Below, in pieces: positions 2,936-15,844 of a stretch of 64,000 nucleotides of DNA; position 1 is the first letter of the stretch; every line of letters starts with the position of its first letter. The notes beneath the pieces are model-generated. The model did no database searches. It was not told the DNA's origin and saw nothing but the letters and a program-made list of their open reading frames with translations. The translations under genes were made by a program, and so were the position numbers. Source of the DNA: Euryarchaeota archaeon TMED173 (GTDB lineage Archaea > Thermoplasmatota > Poseidoniia > Poseidoniales > Thalassarchaeaceae); NCBI GenBank assembly GCA_002172185.1, contig NHHW01000007.1:40116-104115 (forward strand), given 5' to 3'.

Positions 2936-4864
2936 GTGGTCAAGTCGCAGGTAACGGTATCCAGTCGATTCAAGAGAAGCCAGGATTACCATGAGACCTA
3001 TCTGAGACTAATCAGATGGGAGCTTGAAGATGAGTTAGCCATGACTGAGAAGAGATTGAAAGATTGGTCGGATAAGAAGCTAGAAGCCAATGGTATCGCT
3101 CTATTCGGACTTGTTGCAAAGACCGATGGATGGTTATTCGGCCAGAGGATCATCAAGCTTAGACCAAAATCTGGAGGTAGCTTTGGAAGCCACAGATTTA
3201 GACAGGGAGATATAGTGATGCTGAGTAGATCCAACCCTCTGAAAGAGAGGCCGATAGAGGCAATTGTCAGCGACAGGTCTCGAGGGGTGATCAGGGTAGT
3301 TCTTCCTGAGGCTCCCTCAGGGCTTAGAGGTGGAACTTGGAGGATGGATAGAGGTGCAAATAGAGTTGCATTTGATAGGATGAGAGATGCTCTGAATATG
3401 ATTTTCGAAGAAGATGGCGGGGTCCCTCTTAGAGACTTACTGTTGGGAATGGTGCATGATCCATCTGGAACTGCTTCACTAGTCCCTGAAATGGGGGGAG
3501 TTAGGTCCCAAACTACTACTCTAACAAGTGTTTTGAACAGAGCGCAGAGAGAGGCTGCCGAACATGCGATCCATAGTAGGCTGACTTTAATTCAAGGTCC
3601 ACCGGGTACTGGGAAGACGTACACAGCAGTCAGAGTTCTAGAGACATGGGCCAAGCAAGACTATGGTACAATTTTAGCTGTGGCCGACTCCAATGTAGCG
3701 GTTGACAACTTGTTGGAAGGATTGCTAGAGCTTGGAGTCAGGGCCGTTAGATTAGGTCAACCTGTCAAGGTACGGGAAAATTTGAGGGAGGCAACAATGG
3801 ATGCTCAAATGGAAATACATGATTTAAACAGGGAATTAGTTGAAGAAATCGAAAGAAATGAGAAATTATCCAGGAGGATAAAGGGTATGAGGGGGGGCAA
3901 AGAAAAAGGTCTGGCCCATAGAGACCTGAGTAGGGGGTGGAAGGAGGTACGAAGAATTGAAAGAGAGATAAGGGACGATATACTAGATAGATGTCAAGTT
4001 CTTTGTTGTACTTGCATAGGCTCAGGTCATGATTTACTAGATGGTAGGAGGTTCTCAAGAGTTCTTATTGACGAGGCTACACAGGCAACGGAGCCTGCAT
4101 CGCTCGTCCCTCTAGTACGAGGTTCTAGGCAGATTGTGCTTATTGGGGACCACAAGCAGCTTCCACCAACTGTAATTTCAAGAAGAGCCGAGGATGGAGG
4201 GCTTAGTAGATCTCTTTTCGAGCGATTGATAGACATGGGGATAGAACCAAAACTACTTACTACTCAATACAGAATGCATCCATCAATATCTGAATTTCCA
4301 AATGTCCATTTTTATGAAGGGATGTTAGAAGACGGAGTAAGTCCTGAGGAAAGGACGGCCCCTGTGGGAATGCTATGGCCGGATTGGGATGCTCCAATGG
4401 CTTTCGTTCCTGTAGATGGAGACGAAGTTCTCTCTCCTGATGGGGCATCAAAGGAAAACCCTGCAGAAGCCTCTTGGACTGTAAAAATTCTAATTGAGTT
4501 AGTAGACGGTGGGGAGGTTGATCTATCTGATATTGGAATTGTCACCCCATATGCTGGACAAGTCAGAGCAATAAGGGACATGATTCCTGAGTCTCTACAG
4601 GGTGTGGAGGTTAGAACTGTTGATGGTTACCAGGGAAGAGAGAAAGATGTGATTATCTTCTCTTGTGTTAGATCCAATCGTGAAGGTAATGTAGGATTTC
4701 TATCTGATCCCAGGCGACTAAATGTAGCTTTGACCAGATCGAAAAGAGGTTTGGTGGTTGTAGGGGATCCAGAAACTTTGAGGAATGATGAGAATTGGGA
4801 ATCATGGATAGAACATATTCGGAGTAGGAAGCTTGAGGCATGGCATCTTCTCGGTACAGCATGA
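2936..4864 (+). CDS. Superfamily 1 helicase, UPF1/SMUBP2-like (DNA2/NAM7 group)
   Basis: ATP-dependent nucleic-acid helicase, 642 residues. The N-terminal beta-barrel-like region (about 15-150) matches that of IGHMBP2-type enzymes. Walker A GPPGTGKT is at about 221-228. Motif II is LIDEATQATE (about 376), motif III GDHKQLPPT (about 404), motif V DGYQGREKDVI (about 562) and motif VI LNVALTRSKRG (about 596). The proposed start is a GTG; the first dozen residues could be excluded by a later start, but the helix beginning at YHETYLRL is expected for the family. It leads a tight operon with an RDD protein, YrdC and Map. Confidence 0.93.
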   Translation: MVKSQVTVSSRFKRSQDYHETYLRLIRWELEDELAMTEKRLKDWSDKKLEANGIALFGLVAKTDGWLFGQRIIKLRPKSGGSFGSHRFRQGDIVMLSRSNPLKERPIEAIVSDRSRGVIRVVLPEAPSGLRGGTWRMDRGANRVAFDRMRDALNMIFEEDGGVPLRDLLLGMVHDPSGTASLVPEMGGVRSQTTTLTSVLNRAQREAAEHAIHSRLTLIQGPPGTGKTYTAVRVLETWAKQDYGTILAVADSNVAVDNLLEGLLELGVRAVRLGQPVKVRENLREATMDAQMEIHDLNRELVEEIERNEKLSRRIKGMRGGKEKGLAHRDLSRGWKEVRRIEREIRDDILDRCQVLCCTCIGSGHDLLDGRRFSRVLIDEATQATEPASLVPLVRGSRQIVLIGDHKQLPPTVISRRAEDGGLSRSLFERLIDMGIEPKLLTTQYRMHPSISEFPNVHFYEGMLEDGVSPEERTAPVGMLWPDWDAPMAFVPVDGDEVLSPDGASKENPAEASWTVKILIELVDGGEVDLSDIGIVTPYAGQVRAIRDMIPESLQGVEVRTVDGYQGREKDVIIFSCVRSNREGNVGFLSDPRRLNVALTRSKRGLVVVGDPETLRNDENWESWIEHIRSRKLEAWHLLGTA

Positions 4865-13651: not shown

Positions 13652-14749
13652 ATGTCTAGACTAATTTCAAGTCTCGAACAATTATCTTCCTTTGTTCGAG
13701 AAATAGAGTCGGGGTGTGTTTTTGTTGGAGTTACCGAGGGTTTTCTTTTAGCAGGATCGAAAGCTGGAGAGTTGTGGTGCTGGAGTGTTTCTAGCGGCTT
13801 ACAAGAATGGAAAGTAAAATTTGAGGGTCCTTGTTCAAAGTATGACTTTTCAGAAGGTAAAATAGTATTCAGTGAGTCTGACAAGATTCATGCAGTAAAG
13901 ATCGATTCTGGAGAAATATTGTGGAGCGTTGATCTAGAAGGCTCAAGTGATTTTATTTTCTATGACAAAAAAGGAGTTTGGGCCTCTAGTTCGGTATACA
14001 ACTTCGAAATACAAGATTATTCTGAAGGAAGTATTTGGAGAATAAATAACTCCGGAGAAAAAGTTTTGAGGGTTCCGATAAAGGGTAGGGCTTGGTCTCT
14101 GGATCGCTTCCAAGATAGTGCTTTGTTTGGACTGAGTAGGCCAAATTGTGGTTACGGAATTGCTAGCAATGATGGAGCCATAGAATATTTCTCATCTGAT
14201 CAAGTGGATTCGCCTGTCACCGTTGGAAAGGGTGACGGACGTGAGGTAGTTGTTCTTGGCCATAGTAATGGCACGCTCTCAGTAATTTCTGAACACATAG
14301 TTCAAAACTATGAAATTGGTAAGTCATCAGTAGTATCCATTGACTATCTAGAGGAATGGGCTGCCGCCCTTGAGTCTGGGGTATTGGCTGTCGGGGATAG
14401 GTTAGGTTCCTGGTCGATCGAAACTGGAAATTCTTTCCAATCGTTATGCTTTGGTCCGACAATAGAAGGAGAAAGTGGAATTTGGACATTTTCTTGGGAT
14501 GAGAAATCAGTAATCAGACTCTTAGATCAGTTAGATGGGACCCAGAAAATAGAAGTTTTTCATGACGCTGAAGTAGGAGCTTCATTTGGTTCGACGGATC
14601 ACCTTTGCATTGGAGATAACTCTGGAATGATTTACTTAATCGAAAAAGATGTTCTCCGGCGTAGAATTATCGAGTCTTCGGACGAATCCGCAGAAGACGA
14701 GGGAGTTCGTAATCTTCGAAAGAAAATACGAAGGCTGCGAGGAGGTTGA
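13652..14749 (+). CDS. Beta-propeller (PQQ/WD40-like) protein, function unknown
   Basis: 365 residues made of repeated four-strand blades: units such as GSKAGELWCWSVSSGLQEWKV, KIHAVKIDSGEILWSVDLEG and VLGHSNGTLSVISE show the alternating G-x-L/V-x-x-x-x-x-x-G-x-x-x-W pattern of quinoprotein-type or WD repeats. The C-terminus ends in a basic tail, KKIRRLRGG. No signal peptide is evident, suggesting a cytoplasmic scaffold. It lies between the carboxypeptidase and the structured non-coding region. A binding partner cannot be named from the sequence. Confidence 0.75.
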   Translation: MSRLISSLEQLSSFVREIESGCVFVGVTEGFLLAGSKAGELWCWSVSSGLQEWKVKFEGPCSKYDFSEGKIVFSESDKIHAVKIDSGEILWSVDLEGSSDFIFYDKKGVWASSSVYNFEIQDYSEGSIWRINNSGEKVLRVPIKGRAWSLDRFQDSALFGLSRPNCGYGIASNDGAIEYFSSDQVDSPVTVGKGDGREVVVLGHSNGTLSVISEHIVQNYEIGKSSVVSIDYLEEWAAALESGVLAVGDRLGSWSIETGNSFQSLCFGPTIEGESGIWTFSWDEKSVIRLLDQLDGTQKIEVFHDAEVGASFGSTDHLCIGDNSGMIYLIEKDVLRRRIIESSDESAEDEGVRNLRKKIRRLRGG

Positions 14750-14813
14750 TTTGCAGTGGAAAAATACTCTTTGAGACCTGTATTTCCAGTGAACTGCGGC
14801 TAAATTGGCGAAA

Positions 14814-14821
14814 TGTTTATG
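14814..14821 (+). promoter_or_regulatory. TATA-like element upstream of the structured non-coding region
   Basis: TGTTTATG, preceded by CGAAA as a possible BRE, fits an archaeal TATA/BRE promoter. It would place a transcription start near 14842, just before the first stable hairpin of the candidate RNA. Inferred by eye only. Confidence 0.4.
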
Positions 14822-14841: not shown

Positions 14842-15430
14842 TTCTTGCCGCTCCGGGGGAGTGGTGTGAGGGCGCTTCGGCGCGACTCGCGGGCCACAAT
14901 AACCTAGCCTCGAAACCGAGGCGGTAGAACCGAGATCTGAAAAGAAATCGGGGAAAAGCTGAAGCGTCTGTGGACGCTAAAGCTGCGGCGAATAAATCGG
15001 ACAAACCGGAGGAAACGAAGGGGAGAGCGAGTAATGAGCTGAAGAGATACATGTGCGTAGGGTGAGGAAAACAATCCTGGGTCACATTAGTGGGAAACTA
15101 GATGGAAGAAACTGGAGGCAACGAAAGGGACAGAAACTTAGGGAAACACTGGGCAACAAGAGCGAGGAGACTCGTGGAGAAGCTAGTATCGAGACGTAAA
15201 AGGAAAAACGGAGACGATGTACCAGATACGGATGCGGCGAAAGAGAGGGAGATCTCTCAAGAGTCGGAAAATGACAAAGGAAGAGCATGAAGTTCCGGAG
15301 TCATCTAACCCGGGGAATCCCGGGCCTTCGGGCCCGGGAGAACCGGACCCTGCGGAGTTAACAGGGGGGGAAGCTCCCCCATGTGCGGAACCCCCTGTTG
15401 CTCCACCTGAATTTCGGCCCTGTTTTTTTC
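14842..15430 (+). ncRNA. Candidate large structured RNA, about 590 nt, family not recognised
   Basis: The 720-base gap between the beta-propeller gene and pth2 has no credible ORF but holds a chain of hairpins with purine-rich loops on the plus strand. Examples: 14861-14897 (GUGG/CCAC, GAG/CUC, then GCGC-UUCG-GCGC); 14904-14927 (GCCUCG-AAAC-CGAGGC inside CUA/UAG); 14957-14984 (GCGUC-UGUG-GACGC inside AGCU/AGCU); 15271-15304 (AUGAC/GUCAU enclosing GGAA/UUCC); 15319-15338 (CCCGGGCC-UUCG-GGCCCGGG); 15360-15399 (AACAGGGGG/CCCCCUGUU). A T-run at 15423-15429 is a plausible end and a TATA-like box precedes it. The conserved motifs of RNase P RNA (GAGGAAAGUCC) and the SRP helix-8 loop were sought and not found, though a divergent member of either family cannot be ruled out. 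Ends are approximate. Confidence 0.6.
15423..15429 (+). terminator. T-run terminator of the candidate RNA
   Basis: Seven consecutive T after the GC-rich hairpin at 15360-15399 and a spacer. Oligo-T is the usual archaeal intrinsic termination signal. Confidence 0.4.
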
Positions 15431-15469: not shown

Positions 15470-15844
15470 TCAACTGACTAAAGATAGCTGCCCTGTTATT
15501 TTGTCTACCTCTCTCCTTGGTCCCGGACCTATGCCGACGACAGTCTCAGTTCCTGCAGGAATTTCTGTATGTCCTGCGTCTACAACCAAATAACAGATCA
15601 AGCCGGCTTTCTTCGCTTGAGCCAGAACCTTTCGGAGTGATATTGCATCTGCTACTTTACAGACGATCTTTCTAGCCCCTTCTCTCCTATACCTGTCTAG
15701 GTTGCGAGGAGACTCTTTCTTCGCTCTAATAGTGCATTCCATTGTAGCATGGCCACATTGAGCCGCCAACTTTCCCTTGGATAGATTTAGATCTGCACGA
15801 GTCACTAGGACCATGGTGATTTCATCAGTTGGCGGCAATTTCAC
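15470..15844 (-). CDS. pth2: Peptidyl-tRNA hydrolase, type 2 (archaeal/eukaryotic)
   Basis: Releases tRNA from stalled peptidyl-tRNA. Of the 124 residues, the Pth2 core starts at MVLVTRADLNLSKGKLAAQC, with the conserved K of GKLAAQ, then GHAT, KIVCKV, ICYLVVDAGHTEIPAGT and the closing VVGIGPGP. These are the family hallmarks. The ATG at 15844 overlaps the upstream ECF gene by 20 bases; a later ATG at 15814 gives the compact family start and may be the true one. It is the last gene of the minus run from mcm. Confidence 0.93.
   Translation of the reverse strand: MKLPPTDEITMVLVTRADLNLSKGKLAAQCGHATMECTIRAKKESPRNLDRYRREGARKIVCKVADAISLRKVLAQAKKAGLICYLVVDAGHTEIPAGTETVVGIGPGPRREVDKITGQLSLVS

Follow-up and report, generated by a model that had tools for sequence, protein, structure and literature searches.

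Our analysis indicates that positions 14845 to 15410 of the window (the whole 64,000-nt stretch of DNA that was analysed) very likely specify, on the plus strand, a real structured non-coding RNA of ~565 nt (~570 nt in round terms) with a conserved, covarying fold, no transcript data being available. We regard it as a real RNA because relatives across the Poseidoniales keep both its site and compensating base-pair changes. The delimitation rests on homologs, a consensus fold and a null test, the exact ends being inferred from conservation; the conserved span is slightly narrower than the interval 14842-15430 given in an earlier note, which had proposed from the sequence alone an unrecognised large structured RNA at this place. 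The Rfam search and the search for covariation in relatives that the earlier note had called for support that proposal. They also extend it: the RNA is found order-wide, it has long-range closing helices that had not been seen before, and it may have been sighted in part in an earlier study (Tan1, discussed below).

The segment, which has a purine content of 64%, folds on the plus strand with a minimum free energy of -205.1, as compared with -178.8 ± 6.3 for dinucleotide shuffles (z = -4.2) and -175.5 for the minus strand. Taken on its own, such an excess over shuffled sequences is moderate evidence only. We aligned 46 non-redundant sequences of the whole RNA from family f1 (pairwise identity 55-97%) with MAFFT and predicted a consensus structure on this alignment. 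As a null, independent sites were simulated along a FastTree tree, and each of 25 simulated alignments was refolded; this procedure is our own approximation and not R-scape. The real consensus fold contains 163 pairs, 90 of them with double-sided changes, vs 105 pairs and 14 ± 3 double-sided ones (maximum 22) in the null, and its energy is -219 vs -109 ± 9 kcal/mol. When the covariation test was restricted to the structure, 31 real pairs reached E<0.05, vs 0-1 in eight null pipelines; a less powerful test over all pairs retained six at E<=0.1, and four of these lie in the structure. The 5′ domain shows the same tendency in two sets of sequences. In f1, double-sided changes occur in 9 of 23 pairs and 91% of cells are paired, vs 36-51% with slid partners; in a divergent set, the corresponding values are 12 of 25 pairs and 94%, vs 38-55%. 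An independent alignment of genus g5 of the sister family f2 (n=18) yielded 240 pairs, of which 109 are double-sided. The 5′ and 3′ core domains are strongly conserved and the arms between them are lineage-specific.

The fold begins with hairpin P1, GCCGCUCC-GGG-GGAGUGGU (14847-14865; all features of the RNA are on the plus strand), which is conserved in both families and paired in 98% of cells over 46 sequences, followed by the UUCG hairpin P2, GUGAG-G-GCGC-UUCG-GCGC-GA-CUCGC (14866-14890), with covarying pairs and an inner GCGC-UUCG-GCGC stem at 14872-14883. Two long-range helices then start. The 5′ strand of the closing helix P3, GGGCC (14891-14895), pairs with GGACCC at 15345-15350 (95% of cells paired), and that of P5, GGUAGA (14923-14928), pairs with UCUACC at 15304-15310 (90% of cells paired, one double-sided change). 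Since both helices are nearly invariant, their support is conservation and not covariation, and as they hardly covary their pairing is less certain than that of the arms. The AAAC-capped hairpin P4, GCCUCG-AAAC-CGAGGC (14907-14922), shows double-sided change in four of its six pairs in f1.

Arms P6 to P15 are enclosed between the strands of the long-range helices and are followed by P16 and P17. Hairpin P6, CCGA..UCGG (14930-14951), has two pairs at two-set E<0.05 (14933-14948 and 14930-14951), and P7 (14958-14983), which includes GCGUC-UGUG-GACGC at 14964-14977, has three (14964-14977, 14966-14975 and 14958-14983). A GNRA rod module with noncanonical G.A pairs, CC-GGAG-GAAA-CGAA-GG (15004-15023), has a closing pair, 15011-15016, that swaps between G-C and C-G (two-set E 0.002). 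The central domain P9-P12 (15046-15190) contains many significant covarying pairs, for example 15091-15148, 15165-15172 and 15052-15086; it is made of a GAUAC/GUAUC closure, arms at 15052-15086 and 15088-15150, and the GAGA hairpin GCGAG-GAGA-CUCGU at 15162-15175. Pairs at two-set E<0.05 were also obtained in arm P13 (15195-15230; pairs 15196-15229 and 15209-15216) and in arm P14, CGGC..GAGAGG-GAGA-UCUCUC..GUCG (15235-15266; pairs 15247-15254, 15246-15255 and 15243-15258). Arm P15 (15273-15302) belongs to the consensus fold, with six double-sided pairs and 74-91% of cells paired. Arm P16 (15312-15344) carries the hairpin CCCGGGCC-UUCG-GGCCCGGG (15319-15338), of 8 bp, all GC, and has two pairs at two-set E<0.05 (15313-15343 and 15322-15335).

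The 3′ closing stem P17, GCGGAG..AACAGGGGG/CCCCCUGUU..GCUCC (15351-15405), ends in a conserved C-rich apical loop, and its pair 15365-15394 has a two-set E of 0.002. The sequence of P17 is unlike between genera, yet it pairs with itself in each (150 of 151 cells, vs 58% with swapped arms); the arms were picked by eye, which makes this contrast somewhat flattering. A G-rich partner for the C-rich loop was considered by eye and could not be established. Unpaired positions of the consensus are 51% A and 30% G (81% purine). We did not find conserved L7Ae kink-turns or C/D boxes, which were looked for by eye only. All hairpins named in the earlier note are thus present on the plus strand (the UUCG stems, the AAAC-capped stem, GCGUC/GACGC, and CGAG-GAGA-CUCG within 15162-15175), and its description of the loops and joints as rich in A and GA also holds.

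The RNA appears to have a promoter of its own. A TATA-like box, GAAATGTTTATG (14810-14821, plus strand), contains GTTTATG at 14815-14821; in the form (A/G)TTTA(T/A), it is conserved at constant spacing in every genus read, in agreement with the earlier claim of a TATA-like element upstream. From this spacing, and without transcript data, we infer a transcription start near 14845, ~26 nt downstream of the box. Further upstream lies a paired element, CAGTGGAAA (14754-14762) and TTTCCAGTG (14783-14791), which spans 14754-14791 on the plus strand and recurs in both families, in each case ~75-90 nt upstream of the RNA. In the genera read, it takes the form of two facing half-sites, CAGTGGAAA and TTTCC(A/G)(C/G)TG, with some variation, placed upstream of the TATA-like box. 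An exact-pattern scan found the half-site pair repeatedly at loci of the structured RNA; it was not seen upstream of RNase P RNA or SRP RNA, and the pattern scan for a wider regulon gave no other recurrent RNA-like target that we could recognise. A recurrent site of this element in f2 g2 lies at a protein gene. The upstream element suggests regulated expression of the RNA, and the presence of the half-sites across both families a dedicated transcription factor. A scan for a bacterial-type promoter and terminator found nothing. A T-run that could act as a terminator does exist at 15423-15429 (plus strand), as the earlier note had claimed; it is not conserved, the nearest relative being the only other genome to have it. 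The 3′ end of the RNA is therefore uncertain.

The RNA lies between a gene for a PQQ-type beta-propeller protein (13652-14749, plus strand; PF13360, E 1.4e-7) and a convergent gene for the peptidyl-tRNA hydrolase PTH2 (15470-15844, minus strand; PF01981, E 1.6e-37). Homologs almost always occupy the same site, the usual gene order being the beta-propeller gene, the RNA and a convergent fumC. The beta-propeller gene is upstream in every homolog with enough flanking sequence, and fumC is downstream in nearly all. PTH2 replaces fumC in the genome of the window and at one other homolog of the same genus, and the RNA is kept in both. Since the beta-propeller gene is constant and the downstream neighbour changes, the RNA is inherited at one site without a tie to fumC. 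The fumC gene of the window's own genome was located on a separate contig (G000:C8), its usual place being held by PTH2 at 15470-15844.

A nucleotide query recovered the RNA in 21 of 24 genomes of the same genus, with identities mostly of 75-95%; the 15 sister-family genomes searched gave no match. A query with a divergent locus exposed the 5′ domain in many genera. Covariance models built for the 5′ domain (R1) and for the divergent group (R2) match 146 and 143, respectively, of 319 Poseidoniales genomes; together they reach ~153 of the 319, covering 11 of 11 genera of f1 and 3 of 11 of f2 by our own count. Most of the genomes compared are incomplete assemblies. Among the weak matches we recognised full-length homologs in f1 (g9, g10, g12 and g14-g17) and in the sister family (g5, g7 and g22), which share the promoter, the 5′ domain and the 3′ stem. 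Homologs range from 430 to 1,260 nt (~430 nt in f1 g14, ~1,260 nt in f1 g10) and are nearly always single copy; the named records of the carriers are Poseidoniales, including Candidatus Thalassarchaeaceae, which bears out the placement in Poseidoniales implied by the earlier note. Two other weak matches within the order, in f2 g2 and g4, fall in coding DNA and were discarded as false.

We did not detect the RNA outside the order: two weak matches (G321 and G401) were all that a search of 390 genomes of the phylum returned beyond it, both in coding DNA, and none was found in 21 genomes of the sister order of the class, a search that had no positive control. A match of 18 bits in Clostridia was taken as chance. 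The RNA does not meet what would be expected of a mobile or viral element, as it usually occurs in one copy at one syntenic site. A viral origin was considered and rejected, pattern scans being empty or giving chance matches, and the viral-contig matches that were read lying in coding DNA. Within the order, the RNA is missing next to fumC in f2 g2, g3, g4 and g6 (seven genomes read; g18-g21 were not covered), and in one genome, G032, the beta-propeller gene abuts fumC directly, without the RNA. The simplest explanation is that part of f2 has lost or relocated the RNA, although a highly diverged copy could still lie elsewhere. This absence near fumC suggests that the RNA is dispensable in some lineages.

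Some loci deserve separate mention. A second, shorter RNA (L029:1477-1930, corresponding to G018:C32 ~3989-4440; contig L199) shares the 5′ domain (R1 E 1.9e-6) and the TATA-like box. The contig, which carries moaA and trm1, is cellular and archaeal, and the genome also holds an ordinary copy; the shorter RNA could be a paralog or come from a contaminant contig. Three genomes, G268 (C64, C69), G049 (C34, C42) and G021 (C18, C21), have two R1 matches each, which may be true copies or reflect strain mixture; the second match in G021 runs off the contig end. The 840-nt RNA at L070 (G047) contains, between offsets 184 and 695, six near-identical purine-rich rod hairpins in different arms, with CC/GG steps, G.A-rich internal loops between these and a GCAA cap, as if the RNA grew by rod copying; other g11 homologs have fewer rod hairpins. 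By eye, an internal duplication of ~200 nt is also apparent within the RNA at L133 (G094, g14).

The RNA could not be assigned to any known family. With Rfam 15 at gathering scores, the whole window gave no match except three tRNAs; at E up to 10, a 1.1-kb segment searched against all 4227 families gave only four sub-threshold fragments, and eight divergent homologs gave no match at E up to 0.5. Archaeal RNase P RNA (RF00373) has no model match at the locus and a true copy elsewhere (E ~1e-70) in 30 of 40 relatives, many of which also carry the structured RNA; no copy was detected in the genome of the window itself, whose completeness is just 45%. Archaeal SRP RNA (RF01857) likewise has no model match here and a true copy elsewhere in 35 of 40 genomes, that of the window's own genome being at G000:C5:59093-59405 (E 6e-30). 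The earlier impression that the RNA is neither RNase P nor SRP RNA is therefore upheld, as is the claim that a credible ORF is lacking: the four reading frames of 62-84 aa that could have encoded a small protein are intact in just 1, 2, 7 and 9 of 22 homologs of the same genus.

What this RNA does can only be inferred. Our best reading is that it is a free-standing gene for a trans-acting structured RNA that serves as scaffold of a ribonucleoprotein or RNA complex, to which we give a probability of ~0.55. The scaffold role is favoured because in anatomy the RNA resembles OLE, GOLLD and ROOL, ornate RNAs of bacteria to which no homology was found; the scaffold mechanism itself is slightly less likely than not, and that role, together with oligomerisation, is proposed by analogy. 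The RNA would be transcribed from the TATA-like box, starting near 14845; P1-P2, the long-range helices P3 and P5 and the 3′ stem P17 would join its ends into one compact core, and A-rich loops and GNRA/UUCG tips would pack the arms. The core may then bind a conserved partner, with the arms giving bulk or lineage-specific contacts in a ribonucleoprotein or RNA-RNA complex. No protein partner could be identified, the linked beta-propeller gene being retained also at loci that lack the RNA. It is tempting to go further and to suggest a new class of large RNA in archaea, already present in the ancestor of Poseidoniales and assembling into a particle that is RNA-only or RNA-scaffolded, with a fixed core and arms evolving by copied purine-rich rod hairpins; we would place the odds against this bolder reading.

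Alternatively, the RNA could be a trans-acting regulator and not a scaffold, acting on RNA polymerase, as bacterial 6S RNA does, on translation or on mRNAs; its conserved core would sequester one target and the upstream element would set its expression. This remains possible. The dedicated, conserved promoter element and the usual single copy would fit, and the conserved C-rich apical loop and the terminal CUCCCACC could contact another RNA; however, known regulators of such kind are far smaller and less elaborate, and long conserved unpaired stretches suitable as an antisense seed are almost lacking. A catalytic or RNA-processing role, as ribozyme, modification guide or precursor of guide RNAs, appears unlikely. 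The size, GNRA tips, G.A-rich internal loops and long-range closures do resemble those of catalytic RNAs, but no Rfam family, RNase P, introns and snoRNA included, was matched, RNase P is present separately, and we see no strictly invariant internal core such as an active site would need.

Still less likely is a cis element. It could belong to the beta-propeller gene as its 3′ UTR, or act on the convergent fumC as an antisense or terminator region. In its favour, nearly all homologs have the upstream gene on the same strand and a convergent fumC. Against it stand a TATA-like box and an upstream element that belong to the RNA and keep a fixed distance to it, the replacement of fumC by PTH2 at two loci that keep the RNA, and the genes of G032, which abut without it. 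A riboswitch or leader would call for a regulated gene downstream on the same strand; this condition fails, as nearly all homologs are followed by a convergent gene, and cis-regulation is thus unlikely on this ground as well as because the neighbour can change. Finally, any GC-rich spacer of 590 nt contains some hairpins, and those seen here could be chance products of a non-functional spacer. Conservation across two families and the excess of covariation over tree-simulated alignments already refute this explanation, which we consider all but excluded.

In surface seawater, Poseidoniales are among the most abundant orders of archaea (PMC6461757), and a non-coding RNA of this group has been reported before. 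'Thalassoarchaea ncRNA 1' (Tan1), an unknown 229-nt ncRNA of Marine Group II, was described in 2016 from a Red Sea metatranscriptome, where it ranked fifth in RNA-Seq abundance and had five homologs of 75-79% identity in the same family (PMC5069720). Like the RNA described here, Tan1 is a structured non-coding RNA of Marine Group II archaea; it was reported as far shorter. In the absence of a sequence comparison, Tan1 could be part of our RNA, a relative or unrelated. If it is part, transcription has already been shown, and the novelty lies in the full extent, fold and distribution of the RNA and in the definition of the family. Covariance models of the family offer a target for unassigned reads in metatranscriptomes.

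Very few RNA classes of such size and complexity are known. The closest in kind are OLE, GOLLD and ROOL, which are bacterial and phage RNAs (PMC12286853). None of their Rfam models matches the window RNA or the eight divergent homologs. Nevertheless, all share a length of several hundred nucleotides, many arms, long-range closing helices, A-rich joints, GNRA and UUCG tips, strong covariation and a lack of coding capacity. The RNA thus fits the type, being large and multi-armed with a fold supported by covariation, its long-range helices being conserved rather than covarying. In contrast to these RNAs, it is archaeal and chromosomal, usually present in one copy at one fixed site, and it is flanked by a beta-propeller gene and fumC instead of by OLE-associated proteins or phage tRNA islands. 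Among archaeal RNAs, it is comparable to RNase P RNA (RF00373) and SRP RNA (RF01857) in being structured and several hundred nucleotides long; those two are universal. What is new is an RNA class and not a demonstrated new mechanism, large ornate RNAs being known as a loose kind from bacteria. To our knowledge, no RNA class of this kind has been described from archaea; the bolder reading, if true, would give the ornate RNAs of bacteria their first counterpart in archaea. The RNA is as large as OLE RNA and its conserved core is open to synthesis and probing without a cultured host, so that the question whether archaea own ornate scaffold RNAs becomes directly testable.
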